Of a stretch of DNA of 64,000 bases, positions 18,201 to 60,825 are shown piece after piece; the first letter of the stretch is position 1, and each line of letters begins with the position of its first letter. The position numbers were made by a program, and so were the translations under genes. Where the stretch lies: assembly GCA_030141605.1 (NCBI GenBank), contig JAQGDQ010000153.1:257501-321500 (forward strand), given 5' to 3'. The notes under the pieces are model-generated. The model did not search any database and was not told the origin of the DNA. It saw only the letters and a program-made list of their open reading frames with translations. The stretch comes from Tubiluchus corallicola. Its lineage: Eukaryota; Priapulida; Priapulimorpha; Priapulimorphida; Tubiluchidae.

Positions 18201-19080
18201 ATTAGTAACTTAAAAAAACTACTAGGCACAAAAATGAGTTATAATGATATAATGTGTTACGATAATTGTAATAATGATTACAACAGAGATAATGACGAGT
18301 GTGATGGCAGTGATGGTGATGGTTACGGCACTGATGTGGGTAATATTAGGCTGGCTGTTGCAGACATTTTATCCACTTTGGTCGATTGTTTGTTGGTACC
18401 GTTTTTGGGATCTGTTTGATTTGGGATCACCTAAGCTGGTGAAGAGACCTGTTTAAAATTTCTCTTTTTAGTTGACCTTACCGATAGATTTTTTAAAGAT
18501 AAATCTTCACGTAGGCGCTCATAATTATTTGTAGACTCCACCCACTTTTTTCGGCAGTCCAAATAAATAAATAAATAGATAGATAAATAAATAAATCCTT
18601 TATTTTACATTACGCAGTCATGCAGACTATTTTTAGAGTTGGATCAAAGTTGAAACTTTTTAATTACGATTTTTCTGTGATCTTTGTTCACCCAGGATGT
18701 TTTATCTTTTCAAACAGACATATAATAATATTTTAAAGCTGATACAATTAGTCTCTGTAACCAAATGTAATAAGTGAAAAAACTGGTCTGTTTGACATTA
18801 AATTTTGGTTTTATTTCTCAACAGAGTACTGCCTGTATGCAAATAAGTTTTGCAAAAAATGGGAATTGTAATTCGGGAGGTTCCCTTCTATGGACATCAT
18901 TACTTCCAACTGCTTCGCCAATTTTTTAACAAATAAAAACGTTACCACAATTTGCAGATTTACCAAAAATGGAATTCTATAAAAAGTGGGATTCGAGTTT
19001 CACATAAGCTCAGACACACAAATTTCACATAAGAGAACTGAAACAGTCGGGAAACAGTTTTTGGTATAGCAAAACAATCT
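15291..19080. other. Intronic sequence with hairpin pair and possible regulatory block
   Basis: No exon recognised. 16848-16877 is a perfect 11 bp stem (ATTTACCACGC and complement) with an 8-base loop, followed at once by a second small palindrome ATGACATTCATGTCAT. 17270-17560 is comparatively GC-rich and non-repetitive, with no open frame; it could be regulatory. 18561-18597 is a short (AAAT)n run. The Asp/Asn-rich frame near 18240-18420 has no splice support. Confidence 0.4.
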
Positions 19081-19541
19081 TAAATAATAATAACAATAAC
19101 AATAACAATAACAGTAACAGTAACAGTAACAGTAACAGTAACAGTAACAGTAACAGTAACAGTAACAGTAACAGTAACAGTAACAGTAACAGTAACAGTA
19201 ACAGTAACAGTAACAGTAACAGTAACAGTAACAGTAACAGTAACAGTAACAGTAACAGTAACAGTAACAGTAACAGTAACAGTAACAGTAACAGTAACAG
19301 TAACAGTAACAGTAACAGTAACAGTAACAGTAACAGTAACAGTAACAGTAACAGTAACAGTAACAGTAACAGTAACAGTAACAGTAACAGTAACAATAAC
19401 AATAACAATAACAATAACAATAACAATAACAATAACAATAACAATAACAATAACAATAACAATAACAATAACAATAACAATAACAATAACTATAACTATA
19501 ACTATAACTATAACTATAACTATAACTATAACTATAACTAT

Positions 19542-19604
<63 letters not shown>

Positions 19605-19645
19605 GACGACGACGACAACAACAACAATAATAATAATTGTACTGT
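19081..19645. repeat. Hexanucleotide satellite (AACAGT, AACAAT, AACTAT, AACGAC) abutting Lbx exon 2
   Basis: About 565 bp of 6 bp units in blocks: AACAAT, then about fifty AACAGT units, then AACAAT (19391-19488), AACTAT (19489-19543) and AACGAC/GAC (19544-19617), ending in AACAAC and AAT. The long frames here (Tyr-Cys, Leu-only) are artefacts. The array ends about 17 bases before the exon 2 acceptor. From 19391 to the acceptor there is no AG dinucleotide, while the AACAGT block is full of them. Confidence 0.95.
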
Positions 19646-19656
19646 ATTTTTTTCAG

Positions 19657-20267
19657 ACGCATTCGGTTTGAGAGATCCCTTACAACTATTCAGCAGTCGT
19701 CAACCACCAAAAAGACGGAGGAAATCTCGAACAGCTTTTACTAATCAACAAATATACGAACTCGAAAAGAGGTTTCTCTACCAGAAGTATCTCTCCCCGG
19801 CGGACAGGGATGAGATTGCGCAGAATCTGGGCCTTACAAACGCGCAGGTAATCACGTGGTTTCAAAACCGACGCGCTAAACTTAAGCGCGACATGGAAGA
19901 GATGAAAAACGACTTGACGGCAACGGAAGCCATAATTAAGAAAGGCTCTCCCACTGGCCGCCTGCCCTCTAACATTACAGCTATTGTCCGCTCCGTGGCA
20001 ATGGATAGTCAGAAAATGTGTAATAATAGTCATTACCACGGACACAATGATCATCTCGATGCGCCGCGAGATTTAGAGATGGTTGACTCTACGAGTGGCG
20101 ACAGTGACAGTGATAATATTGATGTCGAAGGTGTGGAAACAGACGAGGAGAAGGAGACGTCAAATGTTGCAAGCACAGACAATAATAATTGCAGTTTAGA
20201 TGATAAGGAGGACATAAACAAAGGAGAGGAAGAGACGACACAGCAGCCTTCAACACGCGACAACTAA
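19657..20267 (+). CDS. Lbx: Lbx (ladybird) homeodomain transcription factor, terminal exon
   Basis: This exon encodes a homeodomain DNA-binding protein of the ladybird/LBX family, a nuclear regulator of muscle-precursor, heart and interneuron fates in flies and vertebrates. The homeodomain occupies 19716-19895. It begins RRKSRTAFTNQQIYELEK and has YLSPADRDEIA in helix 2. Recognition helix QVITWFQNRRAKLKRDM carries Thr47, Gln50 and Asn51. RFLYQKYLSPADRD and LKRDMEEMK are hallmarks that separate Lbx from Tlx and other NKL genes. Downstream, about 120 residues end in an acidic Ser/Asp/Glu-rich tail (DSDSDNIDVEGVETDEE), resembling the acidic tail of LBX1. The acceptor TTTTTTTCAG precedes 19657; the first AC completes a GAC codon with G151. 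The stop is TAA at 20265. No AATAAA was found close to the stop. Confidence 0.97.
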
Positions 20268-26293: not shown

Positions 26294-26559
26294 CCTGGCA
26301 CCAATGCTGGCAGGACGGTACGAAGCTACGACGGTACGGCACGAAAAAAATCTTAAAAGTACTGCATTTTTTCAACAGTACGGTGCGATACGGAATTTAC
26401 GGTATTTTTTTCGTACTTTTATTGTACCTTTTCTGCATCATTTTTCTCAGTTTCTTGTAACGTTTTCACTGGTCAGCAACTCGGCATGACGCCGTTTTGC
26501 TCATGGATGGACATTTACTGCTCTCGTCTAATTAACATAGAGCACACGCAAATAAAAGG

Positions 26560-26858
26560 CTAGATAGGTTCGTTTTGGGTGCAAAAGCGGCAAGTTTTTG
26601 AGTACTGGATAGTGCTGCCACCTTCAGGTGTTCTTGTTAAAATTGTTAAATCTTTCTCTTCACTGTTTAAATTTTCATTGGCTTCTACAGTCTTTAGGAA
26701 TGCATAATCTCTAAACCTGCTTTCACACCTAAATGATTTCACCTGTAGTTTTGGTCACTTGGTTTTCTGTTTATGACAATACTTCGCTGATTATGCAGAC
26801 ACTTCAGAATAAAATCTTAAAACTAAATTTTAAGTTTTTTGCTTTCTTTAAACCCAAA
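26560..26858 (+). repeat. Probable 5' LTR of the BEL/Pao copy
   Basis: AT-rich sequence directly before a primer-binding-site-like TGGTAGCAGAGAG at 26862. It contains an AATAAA polyadenylation signal near 26809. No second LTR copy exists downstream, so the boundaries are inferred only from position. Confidence 0.4.
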
Positions 26859-26861
26859 GTT

Positions 26862-26875
26862 TGGTAGCAGAGAGT
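26862..26875 (+). promoter_or_regulatory. BEL/Pao primer-binding site
   Basis: TGGTAGCAGAGAG begins with TGG, the complement of a tRNA CCA end, and has the wording seen in BEL elements. It lies 27 bases before the first gag-like ATG (26889). Confidence 0.55.
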
Positions 26876-26888
26876 AGTTTTTGTGACC

Positions 26889-28243
26889 ATGCCTACAATA
26901 GGACAAAAAGGTGTAGTTGATACTTCGTCAAAAGATGGCAAACAAAGCAAAAGCAGTGAAGCAAGTGGAGGACACTCCAGTGAAAGGATTGGTGACCGAG
27001 TCAAAGCCTTGAAAAACGAAAAAATGGCTGCAAAACAACAGTTTACAAAGCAGATCAACAGTTAATAAAACAGCACTTGGAGCAGATGGATCAGATACAA
27101 GTAAGAACTATTGACATTATTAGAGAGTTGCATGAATGTTACTGTACGCTGGATGATGTTGATATGACTGAGAAAATGGAACAAGAAATGGAAATACAGA
27201 AGTTGAAAATGATGAATGGTAATAAAAACAACCAGCGCAATTGCACTCGTCTGCTGTCAGTCAAAAACCGGAGGACCCATCCATTGGTAGGGATATGTGG
27301 AAGCAATTGAAAAGAGTTAGCATTCCAATATTTTCCGGAGATGTGAAAGAATATGAGAACTGGAAAGCTGCGTTCAATGCCTGTGTAAACGATGCACCTG
27401 CAACAAAGGAATACAAATTGCTTCAGCTTGGGCAATATTTATCGGGAGTGGCACTGCAAGAAATTTCTGATCTGGGACAGCTACAACGTATGATGCTGCA
27501 TTACAGCGACTAGAGCGGAAGTTCGGAGGGAAATCGAGACAGATAGCTCTACAATTCCAGGAATTGCGAAGTTTCAAACTTGTGCGAGCCAACAACCCAG
27601 ATGATCTCGGTAAATTTGCTGATTTGCTGGACATTGCATCAAGGAATTTGGACTAGAAAATGAGTAGAATAGCCATATGTTCTACAGCATGCTACTGGAG
27701 AAGTTAACAGAGCAAATGGCGAAGGATTACAAATGGTGGATTTTAGAAAATAAGAAAGAGTGGATTGTGCGAGAAGCAGAATGCAGAACACAGGCTTTTG
27801 AGATTATCCATGGAGTTGGAAGCACAGCACAGAATGAGAAACCGAAATGGAAAAACAAAACATTTTTTGCAAAGCAGGGAGGCACTAATCAATCAAAACA
27901 GCCACATGCAGCGCGAAAGACACTTGGTCGAAGATGTGCATTCTGCACAGAAGATCACCCAATTTGGTTTTGCCAGAAGTTCAAGGATTTGGACATGGAT
28001 GGAAGATGGAATCCTGTCACAAAGCTCAAGCTGTGTTTCCAATGTCTGGGCGATGACCACCAAGCTAGCCGATGTTATAGAATGCGAAGTTGTGGAATAA
28101 ATTCATGCACACAGAATCACAACAGGCATCTTCATCAAACATATCCTAAATCGAGTAGCATGCCAAAAGCTATTGTAGAGCAAAGGATGCAAGAGGGGGA
28201 GACAACATCCACAAGTACTCGAGTGCAGCTGACTACGCCATGA
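26889..28243 (+). pseudogene. BEL/Pao retrotransposon gag, decayed
   Basis: Gag of a BEL/Pao LTR retrotransposon, readable only in pieces. A lysine/serine-rich N-terminus runs from ATG 26889 to a stop at 27063. A coiled, Glu/Met-rich piece follows in another frame (27077-27310). The DUF1759 capsid-like domain sits at 27301-27513, with the signature IPIFSGDVKEYENWKAAF, and continues in a third frame to about 27655. The C-terminal part (27677-28243) has two zinc-knuckle regions, CAFCTEDHPIWFCQ and CFQCLGDDHQASRC. At least four frame changes and several stops show it cannot make a full protein. Its last codons overlap the protease frame by 4 bases (ATGA). Confidence 0.85.
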
Positions 28244-28731
28244 TGACAGTTCCTGTAATCCTGAAAAATGGTACAAGACGTCTCCAGGTTAATGCACTTC
28301 TTGATGATGACAGCACATCAACATTTGTGAATTTATTAGTAGCAGCAGAACTTGGTTTACAAGGGGCAATCGAAGAAATTTCTGTCAGCGTTTTGAATGG
28401 AGATCTGACAACATTCGAGACTATGCCAGTTCACATGAGATTGGAAAATGTAGAGAATACGCTAGACATGATGATAACTGCAAAGGCAGTAGAGAGTGTT
28501 ACTGGAAACCTGAAAGCGTACGACTGGAATCACCATGCTAACCAATGGTTTCACATTAGAAACATTAATCTTCCAAAGCTAAGCCGCCCTTTGAAAGTCG
28601 GTATGCTGATTGGTTTAGACTACCTATTGTTACACAAATCATTAGGAGAAGTGGCTGGAAGATCCAATGAAGAGCCAATTGCACGATTGGCACCACTTGG
28701 TGTACATAATTATACAGCTTTTGTAAACTAA
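28240..28731 (+). pseudogene. BEL/Pao aspartic protease (DUF1758-like), truncated pol
   Basis: An open frame of 163 codons follows gag in the -1 frame. It carries the active-site block NALLDDDSTSTFVN, in which the family's usual Asp-(Asp/Ser)-Gly-Ser is altered by Asp replacing Gly. Hydrophobic strands and GMLIGLDYLL, a DUF1758-type motif, follow. The match stops shortly after RLAPLG, where a BEL protein would continue towards the reverse transcriptase. Reverse transcriptase, RNase H and integrase are absent, so the copy is 3'-truncated. The Gly loss suggests the protease is inactive. Confidence 0.75.
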
Positions 28732-28832
28732 AAAAAATACGGTAGTATTCAAGTTTTAACAGCAGTTCTGTTTTGATGTAGTATGCATAAATTCATAATA
28801 AGAATATTAATAATAATAATAAATCGGATTTA

Positions 28833-29060
28833 CAATTGACGTCAAGCATATTGGTCTGTCGCCCCGCCTCTGTTGTGACGCAACACGCTGATGGGAAATC
28901 GGGGACATCAGCTTGAATCGAACAATAACTCTTATTAAACAACATGACAAGTATTGAACTATAATGTCTAATCAGCAATCTGATAAACTGATTACGCTTT
29001 TCATACACAAAATTTGCAAGGCAGCAATTATTTTACAAGGAATTAATACTTCAAGCAGCC
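28833..29060 (+). repeat. Dispersed repeat, copy 1 (second copy at 59303)
   Basis: It begins CAATTGACGTCAAGCATATT and ends ACTTCAAGCAGCC. It shares ordered blocks TATTGGTCTRTCGC, AAACAACATGACA, TCTAATCAGC, AAACTGATT, TTTTCATA, CACAAATTTGC and TTCAAGYAGCC with 59303-59539 in the same orientation. No coding frame. Here it lies inside the hAT-bounded unit. Confidence 0.8.
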
Positions 29061-29374
29061 AAAAAGCTACTTCCGTACATGCACTTGGTACGGAATTTCG
29101 GCAAGGAATTACGGCACGGTATTTTATCGTACTAGTACGGTACGATTCAATTTTGCAGGTACGTTTTGGAATTATTTTACGGTATTTTTTCAGCTTAGGA
29201 ATCACCGTATTTTTTTCTTACCGTACCGTACAGCCAGCCTTGCCTGGCACCGCCAGATTTGCCTGCCAAACTTGGGCAATCGGAAAGAAAGCATCATGTG
29301 AAGTAAACGCATTGGCCTTAGTAGAATTACTGCCCATTTAGGTACTTTATTTTTTGAAGAACTCTATAGATCAT

Positions 29375-32610: not shown

Positions 32611-35600
32611 ACAAAAAACTACACTAAATTTTTATTACAGTGAATCGAAGTAACGCTTCATTTGAACTGTTTGGCGTTGAGCTGTTTCAAGCATTTTTGG
32701 TCGATTTTTTTTGAAGAGAGAAGATTTTTTCTTTTCAGGACGCACTAGGAGAGCAAAATAAGTAAAAAACAAGACAAAACAAAAGTGAATTGTGACGCAA
32801 ATTAAACCGAATACATAAATATGCCAACGTACATTGATGTGAAGCCTGAGCTTGAAAATACAAGCAACGATTTTTTTGTAACAAGGTTTCAATTTAAATA
32901 GTGAATGGGAATCCAGGCTTCCCAAGTTGCAACAATGAAATGAAACAGGAAAATCAAGACGGTAACTTGTTTCAGCTGACCGACTCAATTAACGTACTCC
33001 GTGTCTAATCAAAGAACTTCCTTTCGCTAACTAAAGGACCTTGGCTAATTGAATGTCATTTGTAGTGCTTTCTCCCGTAAAGCAATCTAAATGGACAGTT
33101 GCTACAGATATGTGATGGCATCAACGCTATAGATTGTTGGTATGCAATAAAACAGAACGGGCTATCAAAAAGTGAGTAATTTAGTGAGTGAATTTAGGTT
33201 CTGCGAAAGTAAAAAACTGTTGCATATTTTTTATTGCAAAGTGGTTTTAACCACTTAGCGGATACAGAACAATTTCTGTAATGTTGTAATCCATTTTATG
33301 ATAACTGTTTTAGGAACTTAATTTGAAATATTAATCATGCTCAGAAATGTTATTATGTGAACATTTAACGAAAATAAATATTTACCGCTTAATTGTTTAC
33401 TACGAGGATAAAATAGGTCAAGCCACAGAAAGAAGTTAAGCATGTGTAGCGATCGCCCATCATTTTCGCAGGTAAGCTAGTTCACCTATAGCGGAAAATG
33501 ATTCTCATCTATGATTCTTAGTGTAGGAATAACGCAACCGGTTTTCCTGCGAGCGGTTATGGTTCAAGGCTGAGTTAAGAATTAGTATTTCTAGGTGATG
33601 TAGGAGATACGTCTTAGGATGGTTTAGGTATTGACACGGACATGCGCGGTGAACAAAGCAGAATCTCTGTCGCTTGGAGAAGGAGAAAGAAGAGAAACCA
33701 ATGGCTTCTATGAACTGCGGTGCCCGCAGTGCCTACAGTTAAAAATAGTTGCGTAATATGTTCTACAAAAGTGTACAGCAGCTAGCTAAAAAATCTCTTG
33801 GCTAACCAGTGTTGATCATTGTAATAGAAACAGTTATGCTTAATAAGCTTAGTTTGCTTATAATGTATTCGTGCCGATGCCAAACGACGCAGTAAAGTTC
33901 TTTCTTATACATACTAGTGATTAATTGCTTAGAGATATTATAGACTTTAAGAACTAATCCGCACGGTTAAATTCAGAATCCAGCAAGTAGCCCTTTAACG
34001 GATTAATACCGAATTTGGCATGTGTAGTAGCAAAATGTGCCGAACATGATCAATAATATAGACTCGAATTTAATGCGCTAGTATTTTCAGTAGTACTTTA
34101 GTATTTTATCTTAGCACTTTCTGGAGATGGAAACAACAAACGGAATTACATTTTGATGTTTCGGAAACAGGAGTACGACGATTGGTTGAAAATTTTATGA
34201 TGCTCCGTACATTTTTTTGATGGCTCGTAATGGAATTGCCTGAGAGCAAGACATCAGAGATCATCTGAATGTCTCACATAGCAAAACACTGATGCAAGTT
34301 AGTAGGTCATTGAATATGTGAGTGCGCAGTAACTGAAAAACATCAGATGTATGTTTGTCGACGTAGAGCTTCACTCTTTAGCATTGCATTATAAAAACGT
34401 CTGTCATAACCTTAAGTGGGAAAGGGTGATAAATCAGGATGGTTACTGTTCTTAACTTCTTTATTTCTTTATTTTAAAATATGGCGCGCAATATTAAAAT
34501 TTATCTACTGTCCAAAATAAAAATTTCAATTTACTGTCTGCTTATTCATTGACAAGTTGCGTCTGATAGTGAGTCTATGTTACATTGTCATGTCATTAAC
34601 TTTGGAACATGGGCACCGGGAGAAAGCAGGTGCAAAAAACCTTCCTTTTCAGCATTTTACCCGTTTTCTTGTCATTATTTCAGTATTTCTGAGGAACAAG
34701 AAAGCATTCTTGGGATGAGCTGGACACCTCTCAGGCAAATTGTTTTGCAAAGTAAAACCACAAGCTACAAACTCGGCGGTCAGCTATTACACACTAATTA
34801 AGTAATATAAACGGCGATTGGATATCAAGATCACGTGACCACTCGCTACGTTTCCACGCGATAGTACCTCACTAAATAATGCTGAGTGTTGTTGCGGAAA
34901 ATTTATTATTCAGTTAAACGTTTTTCCGAGTATGCTGTTTTAACCGTTTTTTTCGATTTAAACACAAGGCTTATCCCAGACTGTTACGTTTCGCATTTAA
35001 GCCTACAACAAATATTCACAGTTTCGTGAGTTTTTTGTGTTTCATAAAGGTTTTCCATGACGCCATTTAGCCAATACTGCAGTACAATCAATGACATCAA
35101 TTATTTCTCGATTAAATTTTACTGATCATTACAAATTTGCACAATTTTGCACACTCCAACATTAATAGGTATCTACTAACCAGTTTAACCACTAGCTAAA
35201 GAAAACATTTAAAATGTTTGCCGGTATTATTGATGCGTCATTCCGACCATTTCCCTGCTATAGGATTTATAGCATCACATCTAGAACTTGCCACGAGAGG
35301 GAAATAATAAAGGTTTGACAAAAAATATAAAAACTACATTAAAATTTCTACACTATTTATGTAGTTTGTAAAAGTTTTGTGCCACAGAGTATCATTTTCC
35401 ATTGCTGTTGTTTTCTACTGCTTAAATTTCTTAATAACAACTTTATCTGCCAGTGAATTGCATACAGTGTCGGCCATTAAAATCTTGTTAGCCTTACTGT
35501 AATGATCCTGTTTTGGACGGACGGCCATATAAAGGCAGGCTTGCACTGATGCCGAAATCTCTATTGACAACGTCAGCCAAAGAGAGCTGTTCAATTTGCT

Positions 35601-50149: not shown

Positions 50150-51590
50150 CATTTTGATTTATTATTTTATTTCAAACTTTACAAAGTTCATAAACACATC
50201 ACAAATTAATACAAATAATACAATAAATCATGACACACAACAATAACACAAATAACAATTAACGATATAACAAACTACGCCAATGATGTCTAATTACAGA
50301 AGAAAAGTTTACATCACTGTTTAAAATGCTCTTGCATATAAAATTTTCACTCTTATTCAGCCTCACGTGTAAACTGTATGCACATTTTCTGTGAATCACA
50401 TCAAAATAAATAAGATTGTCTAGTAGAAATATACGTGGCGCTCGTATCATATGAAAAGTTAAACAGCTTCCGTGTTGATACATTATATGCAACCTTGAGT
50501 TTGCTAAAATTATAAGAATAAAAATGTCTCCAAGTGGACATACAATAAAAAGTAGTGCAGTAAGCAGTAAAATATTGTCTCTTCACGTTAACTGAACAGT
50601 GAGTAAATTTCATGAGTAATTTATTTGCTCTACCATAGTAAATTGAACATTGTCGTAATATATCTAAATCATCTCTATTGTCTTCCGATAAAATATGACC
50701 CAGATATTTTTCTTTTTTACTAAGTAAAAAACTTTTACACTGCAAAACAACAGACCCAAAAGTAAACTGCTGCATGTGGGCAGAGCGAAACATGACAAGT
50801 TTAGTCTTATTCACATTTACAAGGATATCATATTCTTTAGCAAATTTGTTAAAAATATCTAGCAATCTCTGCAAAGCCGTCGAGGTTGTTGCTAAAAGAC
50901 ATATGTCATCAGCGTACATCAAGTGAGTGATTAATGCAGGCTTCAGCAATATGACAACCCACACCAGAGCTAGTAAGTGCACCATGAGATTTTTAAAATA
51001 GAAGTTGAATAACAGTGGAGACATTTTTCCACCTTGACGAATTCCGTTACCTACTGCAAAACTATCAGAGTTAAATTTACCCCATTTAACCAACATGGTT
51101 CCGTATAATAAAAAAGCAAAAGTCTAATTAATTCATTTGGTAGGTTAGTATTGATAAGGTTTAGAAACAGTTTGATGCGTCAATAAACAGAATATATACA
51201 ATGTTTTGTCGACTAATGTAATAGTCAAGCACCTCTTTTAAAGTATGGGCGCGTTAAGACCTTTATTGTCAACTGAATTTAACAAATTTTTATAATGATT
51301 ACCCCACATTGCACAAATGTCCTTTTCCCCATTTGACTCACCAGCTTGTGCAGAAAGAGGAAGTTTTGAATTGGTTTCTTTTTCTATAGATGTCCAAAAT
51401 TCATAAGGGTTACAATGCATAAGTTTACAAGCCAAATTGTCAGCAATAATACGTTTCACATTACGTTTGTACTCACGTAATGCGCGTTTAAACAATGCTC
51501 GAGAGCGGCACATTTCATCAGCTAAGTAGCCAATGTCTAATGAACAAATATTTTGTGAGTCTACTGCTAGTCTATATAGTACCAATATAA
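50150..51590 (-). mobile_element. LINE reverse transcriptase, decayed
   Basis: On the minus strand a non-LTR reverse transcriptase can be read. The linker ahead of the polymerase (51585-51238) includes YEFWTSIEKETNSKLP. Motif A follows (YILFIDASN, catalytic Asp at 51181-51179; the usual Phe-Asp end is worn), then GNGIRQGGKMSPLLFNFY (motif B) and motif C YADD at 50916-50905. TKLVMFR and KYLGHIL come after it. The main frame ends at 50401, but the C-terminus continues in another frame to 50259. Frameshifts near 51100-51180 and 50450 and the lost start make it inactive. The endonuclease domain is absent upstream. An A/T-rich 3' UTR extends to about 50150. Confidence 0.85.
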
Positions 51591-59302: not shown

Positions 59303-59539
59303 CAATTGACGTCAAACCTATATTGGTCTATCGCTCCGCCCCCGCTGTAAACACGTTCAGCAGCATTCGGGACAACTGCTCATGCAGGACAACAACTGTC
59401 TAAGCTAAGCTAAACTAAACTAAACAACATGACAGTCACAACTAACATCTAATCAGCTTATAAACTGATTTCAATTTTTCATAAACACAAATTTGCAGAG
59501 CAGCAGCTATTTTACACGAAATTAACACTTCAAGTAGCC
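59303..59539 (+). repeat. Dispersed repeat, copy 2 (first copy at 28833)
   Basis: It begins CAATTGACGTCAAACCTATA and ends ACTTCAAGTAGCC; block order is the same as at 28833-29060. It includes a local expansion AAGCTAAGCTAAACTAAACT absent in copy 1. A word GTTAGACGTCAATT at about 59924-59937 is nearly the inverse of its start and could mark the far end of a ~635 bp element. Confidence 0.8.
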
Positions 59540-60825
59540 AGACATGACTTTTTAATTTAAAGTTAATCAAATTGTTGTTTTACTTGCAAAGCCATAAAAT
59601 AAACTAAACTGCGCCTTTTTTCTTGATTGCAAAATGGTTTAATCGGCAACTCATAGACATAAGCGTTGTGCATTTCTTCCTATAAACGAAGCTAGACTAT
59701 ATATTACCACTAATTCATTTGCAATTTCAATTGACAATAATAAAATCTAGAAACAGGCCAATATTCCTCCGGCTAACTAATGAAAAGTTTAGCATTTTTC
59801 ACAGCAGCATTAGACCCAGCTGTAGCTAAATGTCCCGAACCTATCTGAGTTAATTAAGCTCTGCAAGGGTGTGAAATAACTTGCACGCTGATTGGGCAGT
59901 CAACGAAAATGATTGACATCATGTTAGACGTCAATTAATGTATACTACAATCATATTTTACGGTATAATCATGTTGGTTAAAGCTATGTAACCACTTTAA
60001 TCTTGGTCATAATTGATCAAATGACTCATTTTTACATAAGCACACTTAACTACAACACTAGAATAACAGAACTTCAGAGTGAACTGTAGAAATTTCTCAA
60101 TGCGTACCTTCATCACAGCTTGCCTTCACAGCATCACGCTGCCCAGCAGTCACCTGCTTACGTCATTTTTTTAAATATGCCGGCAGCGACGTTCGTTTGG
60201 CGGGAGACAAAAAATATTTAAATTTATTTGACAATTTTAAGCAAAGCATCCTATGCGCATATCTTGTGTGGTGATTTCATTATTTTTAATTGTATATTAA
60301 AATGCAATAAAAGTTGTTCGAAGGTTGGCTCTTCCTTTAATGAGCCTTTGCCCGCCTACTAGATTGTTCTGAATAAAAGACATACAACAGAGAAATAATA
60401 ATCGATGATCAAACTGAAAAACAAACACGTTTATTATATATGATAATAATAGGTATTTGTACAGCGAGAATTCTAGTAGGGGACCACAGGAGCATAATAT
60501 ATAGTTTATAGTCACTGAAATGCCTTCGCGCAAGCGCAACATATTATGAGTATCCAGACGTAATTAACAGATATTCGAATTTAGATAATGCGTAAGTAAA
60601 AAGTGAGAGCTCAAATAGTAATCAAAACGATTGCATTCAATGTCGGTATTGAATGCAGGCAGTTCAGTTAATTACAATCTGGATACCACACATAAAGATA
60701 CATACATATACAATAATATGATTCTTCCCATTGTTTAAAAATATAAAAAATCGCAAAGATGTTACAGCGATGCGTCTCCACCCCCTCTTTCTCGTCTCCT
60801 CTTAAGTCTTCCTTTCCACTCAGGT
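59540..60825. other. Intergenic; includes the troponin C 3' UTR
   Basis: The part adjoining 60826 should be the troponin C 3' UTR (minus strand). TTTATT at 60430-60435 reads AATAAA on that strand and is a reasonable polyadenylation signal. Nothing else recognised. Confidence 0.45.
60430..60435 (-). terminator. Possible polyadenylation signal of troponin C
   Basis: AATAAA on the minus strand about 390 bases after the troponin C stop codon. Confidence 0.3.

Follow-up and report, generated by a model that had tools for sequence, protein, structure and literature searches.

A BEL/Pao retrotransposon piece inside a non-autonomous hAT-like element at one locus of Tubiluchus corallicola

Elements of the hAT superfamily have short terminal inverted repeats (TIRs) with a CA(G)-like beginning and subterminal repeats, and Ds elements of maize make 8-bp target duplications, a length common to hAT, P, Zisupton, and other elements. 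BEL/Pao retrotransposons are an animal lineage. Some Ds elements are enlarged by LTR-retrotransposon insertions and others carry filler that replaces internal sequence (PMC3260210). Animal Pack-TIRs, such as the frog hAT-N8_XT, hold a foreign insert within a TIR element; multicopy cases number only four (1.4%) in 100 animal genomes, the authors favour gap filling as the origin of the single-copy cases, and the survey gives a median piece length of 224 bp (PMC8277862).

The locus described here lies in a window of 64,000 nucleotides, the whole stretch of DNA that was analysed. It resembles maize Ds (hAT superfamily) in being non-autonomous, with subterminal repeats and an interior of LTR retrotransposon or filler (PMC3260210), and it resembles Pack-TIRs in holding a foreign insert in a TIR element, Pack-TIRs being mostly single-copy and showing short breakpoint microhomology (PMC8277862). 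Unlike Ds, whose LTR elements are those of plants, it encloses a BEL/Pao piece, and no autonomous partner is tied to its ends. Pack-TIR cargo is by definition not of transposable-element origin (PMC8277862), whereas the cargo here is a piece of a multicopy retrotransposon, and the locus also differs from a multicopy Pack-TIR in that its junctions were seen at the window locus only (10 of 10 candidates scored for the 3' junction, 40 of 196 for the 5' junction).

Anatomy of the unit

The unit (26302-29242, 2941 bp) has related inverted ends, CAATGCTGGCAGGACGGTACG on the left and CAAGGCTGGCTGTACGGTACG on the right (minus strand), which on direct reading share 18 of 21 bases; ACGGTACGG motifs lie immediately interior to them, and two exact copies of CCTGGCAC flank the unit (Table 1). 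Compared at length 8, its flanks match at all eight bases, compared with three at most at lengths 5, 6, 7, 9, and 10, and CCTGGCAC has no further occurrence on either strand of the window. The outer ends carry two and one differences in 20 bases relative to the family form, a divergence compatible with an age similar to that of the BEL piece.

Table 1. Features of the unit and its flanks (positions in the window)
Feature	Position	Strand	Basis or remark
Left 8-bp target-site duplication, CCTGGCAC	26294..26301	.	Flank comparison
5' end of non-autonomous hAT-like element: TIR and subterminal ACGGTACGG repeats	26302..26594	+	72-85% matches at other loci; aligned with relatives
BEL/Pao LTR without its first ~60-75 bp	26595..26854	+	LTR copies match from 26595 (C112 98%)
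Leader, putative primer-binding site, and BEL gag, frame broken	26855..28160	+	DUF1759-like; zinc knuckles by reading
BEL protease region, ending before reverse transcriptase	28161..28700	+	Asp_protease_2; 93-95% to nine other BEL places
3' half of outer element resumes	28701..28837	+	Aligned with L002, L009, L011, L013, L018, L020
Dispersed repeat nested in element	28838..29065	+	Left boundary is the query start, hence not independent
3' end of hAT-like element with TIR	29066..29242	+	Boundary to dispersed repeat good to a few tens of bases
Right 8-bp target-site duplication	29243..29250	.	Flank comparison

The BEL/Pao stretch (26595-28700) forms a single collinear fragment of a multicopy family. 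The LTR and leader query (26600-27100) gave at least 53 matches (40 of 204 candidates scored), many of which stop at 26854 among the matches listed, and the protease query matched nine further places (93-95%, with 10 of 10 candidates scored), some of which are mutually identical and may be assembly duplicates; all nine continue beyond the window's fragment, parting from it at 28700 or 28707. The family is BEL/Pao, with a BEL-type gag and a Pao-type pol: one other copy, scanned in separate pieces, matches DUF1759 (E 2.2e-9, above the cut-off), Peptidase_A17 (E 6.4e-35), and RVT_1 (E 1.4e-7). The window piece shares with such elements an LTR, a DUF1759 gag, and an aspartic protease, and unlike an intact BEL/Pao element, it is truncated and frame-broken; its DUF1759 (E 0.023) and Asp_protease_2 (E 0.0055) matches are both below the Pfam cut-offs. 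A Pfam scan of two X-masked stretches of the window returned no match, nor did Rfam at gathering thresholds in the window. Judging from its position, TTTGGTAGCAGAG, which lies behind the LTR here and in relatives, is a putative primer-binding site. Relative to one BEL copy there are 100 substitutions in 1642 bp, and relative to a second there are 53 in 1108 bp; the piece is 4.8-6.1% diverged from other copies, and the window shows deletions of 37, 39, 24, and 34 bp as well as smaller ones (one other copy compared per part).

In 15 of 19 LTR loci, LTR sequence continues for some 70-86 bp upstream of the 26606 equivalent (in L031 and L032 the upstream part was left out of the comparison, and the last 14 bases there are as in the others). 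Homology in the window starts at 26595 while these 15 loci reach further upstream, so the window LTR is missing its first ~60-75 bp. The idea of an LTR beginning at 26613, together with a 5-bp duplication (GATAG), was rejected, as the LTR of other copies reaches further upstream. The shared upstream part is absent from L043 and L044, and truncated LTRs are therefore not unique to the window locus; these mutually identical loci (C2344:44.0-44.4k and C2202:109.3-109.7k) have a 79-bp LTR piece, the one without that part, in tandem with a longer LTR.

The third repeat occurs at 39 or more other places (40 of 348 candidates scored), 27 of which end at query position 228, that is, at 29065, and a second window copy lies at about 59303-59550. 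An earlier note, made from this DNA alone, had described the exact duplication, the inverted ends with inner subterminal repeats, a BEL gag and protease that stop short of reverse transcriptase, and a dispersed repeat within the unit, all of which our comparisons bear out; the 5' LTR-like region that it recognised is indeed an LTR, although one truncated at its 5' side.

Elsewhere in the window, an open frame with a homeodomain (19008-20267, plus strand), which we take to be Lbx-like, follows immediately on a very long simple repeat readable as poly-Asn/Ser, and an open 240-aa fragment with a YADD motif (50401-51123, minus strand) is presumably a piece of reverse transcriptase.

The family of the outer element

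Searches of the 343.5-Mb assembly (2344 contigs) show that the outer element is a member of a dispersed non-autonomous TIR family with 8-bp target duplications. A 207-bp query from the 5' end gave at least 44 matches, one of them the window's own and the rest at 72-85% (40 of 76 candidates scored), and a 176-bp query from the 3' end gave at least 79, many of them tandem-array units (40 of 91 candidates scored). Allowing up to two mismatches, the end pattern CAAGGCTGGCAGTACGGTAC occurs at 98 + 109 = 207 sites genome-wide, which include tandem-array units and probably also one region assembled repeatedly, compared with 0 for the reversed control. Eight of 23 relatives' loci (L004, L015, L016, L017, L019, L023, L024, and L026), in which two usable ends were not recognised, were excluded from the duplication count; the elements of the other 15 are 0.6 to 2.2 kb long. 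With end pairs picked by eye among motif matches (one end of L014 was placed by eye, and that of L012 was moved by one base), the 8-bp flanks agree at six or more positions in 10 of these 15, which count both L021 and L022, mutually inverted copies on the same contig; among random 8-mers in the same loci, the rate is 0.8%. Agreement is exact in L010 only, 7/8 in L003, L011, and L013 (the last with two possible ends, 6/8 and 7/8), 6/8 in L002, L009, L012, L018, L021, and L025, 5/8 in L014, L020, L022, and L028, and 2/8 in L027. At lengths 5-7 and 9, the relatives' flanks match at four positions at most, and at length 10, L012 reaches 5 and L025 reaches 6.

The likeliest superfamily is hAT, a plausible but unproven placement. 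The hAT label had already been given in the earlier note. It is drawn from the 8-bp duplications (8/8 in the window, at least 6/8 in 10 of 15 relatives) and from ends, CAAGGCTGGCAG with ACGGTACGG repeats, whose form may be that of hAT; no transposase is tied to the ends among the end sites listed. Dimer_Tnp_hAT has at least 114 genome matches (150 of 236 candidates scored), with none found by eye within 5 kb of the listed end sites (part of the 207), the nearest lying at 5.4 kb on C390. The P-type transposase TNP-like_RNaseH_N has 26 matches (34 of 34 candidates scored), none of them, by eye, within 10 kb of an end site among those listed. The KDZ (Zisupton) transposase search yielded 0 candidates in this genome and likewise 0 in the control genomes.

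Several copies carry tandem arrays of the family's end and subterminal unit, with spacings of about 37, 39, 63, and 78 bp (L004; L021/L022; C928:17057-17466; C1672:13926-15116 and 34300-35490; C1233:12102-13371; C1848:33432-34301; C2303:112604-113380), and these look as if the family's terminal repeat seeds minisatellites. On six contigs (C1752, C1831, C1974, C2072, C2074, and C2107), equal-score matches stand at two places about 147 kb apart, which look like one region assembled repeatedly, and copy counts may be inflated accordingly.

Origin of the mosaic

The ends, the BEL piece, and the third repeat belong to three dispersed families found elsewhere. Relatives of the outer element align to about 26594-26604 and resume at about 28701-28709; between these points they have other sequence, about 40 to 1300 bp long. 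The BEL piece is present in 0 of 23 loci of outer-element relatives, and the outer element in 0 of 36 BEL loci, which partly overlap and so represent fewer distinct copies. Neither the 3' nor the 5' junction was found elsewhere among the candidates scored, and a joined-flank query for an empty site returned just the window's own two flanks (2 of 2 candidates). The 591-bp element at L020 lacks an interior segment that nearly coincides with the one whose place BEL takes in the window, and it has no BEL there; a tree joins it with the window element at a support of 0.53. The missing interior of L020 is possibly a weak point of the element.

The chimera was seen at a single locus, so there is no sign that it moved. 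The earlier note had proposed either a transposon that captured BEL or a nested insertion trimmed afterwards, and had named ends always lacking BEL, together with BEL copies ending at different points, as the mark of simple nesting; both were found in the loci compared, which tells against capture as a mobile chimera and, by that test, for nesting, with one-off in-place capture by gap filling a possible other way to the same structure. It is very unlikely that the element acquired BEL at another site and arrived here as a unit of 2.9 kb. Such an insertion may be younger than most, given a duplication that is exact here and in only one of 15 relatives, but exactness is not very unusual, at about 0.12 for the family's average decay (hand arithmetic from the family flank agreement, with L022 and L027 left out), and neither the junctions, found at no second place among the candidates scored, nor the 23 BEL-free loci of relatives accord with it. 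Similarly unlikely is the version in which the element acquired the BEL LTR-gag-protease piece through template switching or capture of cDNA and later moved as a chimera, its sister copies being lost or unassembled. That unrelated repeats merely lie together, the flanking 8-mer and inverted ends being coincidental, is refuted by the family-wide ends and 8-bp duplications and has a negligible probability.

We lean toward reading the locus as a nested insertion that was trimmed afterwards, a mosaic at a single place that has not transposed as a whole. On this view, a hAT-like non-autonomous element about 1 kb long would have inserted with an 8-bp target duplication, as is visible in the anatomy, and a member of the multicopy BEL/Pao family would then have landed in its interior. 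Deletions would account for the ~60-75 bp missing at the start of the LTR, for the loss of all BEL sequence 3' of mid-protease, and for that of up to ~400 bp of the flanking element interior, and a short dispersed repeat would have inserted further 3'; the order of these events is the one we infer. Less likely is gap-filling capture in place, in which a break in the resident element would have been mended with a 2.1-kb BEL stretch taken from a different chromosomal copy or from cDNA of BEL, so that the interior was replaced and a single-copy Pack-TIR-like locus with retrotransposon filler resulted. This account has room because both ends of the BEL fragment are internal to BEL. One collinear fragment would substitute the interior in a single step, T-rich short similarity is seen at the 5' junction and up to 4 bp at the 3' junction (read by eye, and possibly due to chance), and gap filling is, in the survey, the favoured origin of single-copy animal Pack-TIRs (PMC8277862). 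Nesting, by comparison, calls for two or more deletions with their far breakpoints within the outer element, and it shows no BEL target duplication, both ends of BEL being gone. If the ancestor was as short as L020, moreover, the outer element lost little and capture in one step would be the simpler account. Nesting followed by trimming is nevertheless slightly preferred because the BEL fragment starts suspiciously near an LTR edge: a start within ~75 bp would be expected of an insertion nibbled at one end, whereas a piece taken at random from a long element would seldom begin there. Deletion is also the observed mode of decay here, the BEL piece being collinear, 4.8-6.1% diverged, and marked by four deletions of 24-39 bp in 2.1 kb. 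Gap filling also favours nearby donors, and no other BEL lies on the window's contig among the matches listed, while the piece far exceeds the 224-bp median given in the survey (PMC8277862).

Meaning of the mosaic

The locus is an old gene-less DNA transposon copy holding a decayed fragment of an unrelated retrotransposon, and such mosaics are ordinary. Taken alone, the mosaic matters little, as a tidy and well-delimited case of repeats piled into repeats. If the improbable reading of a chimera that captured BEL and then moved were true, it would be an animal hAT-like Pack element with retrovirus-like gag-protease cargo, and if capture were proved, retrotransposon cargo would join what animal TIR elements acquire through gap filling. 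The growth of the family's terminal unit into tandem arrays may deserve attention more than the mosaic itself.
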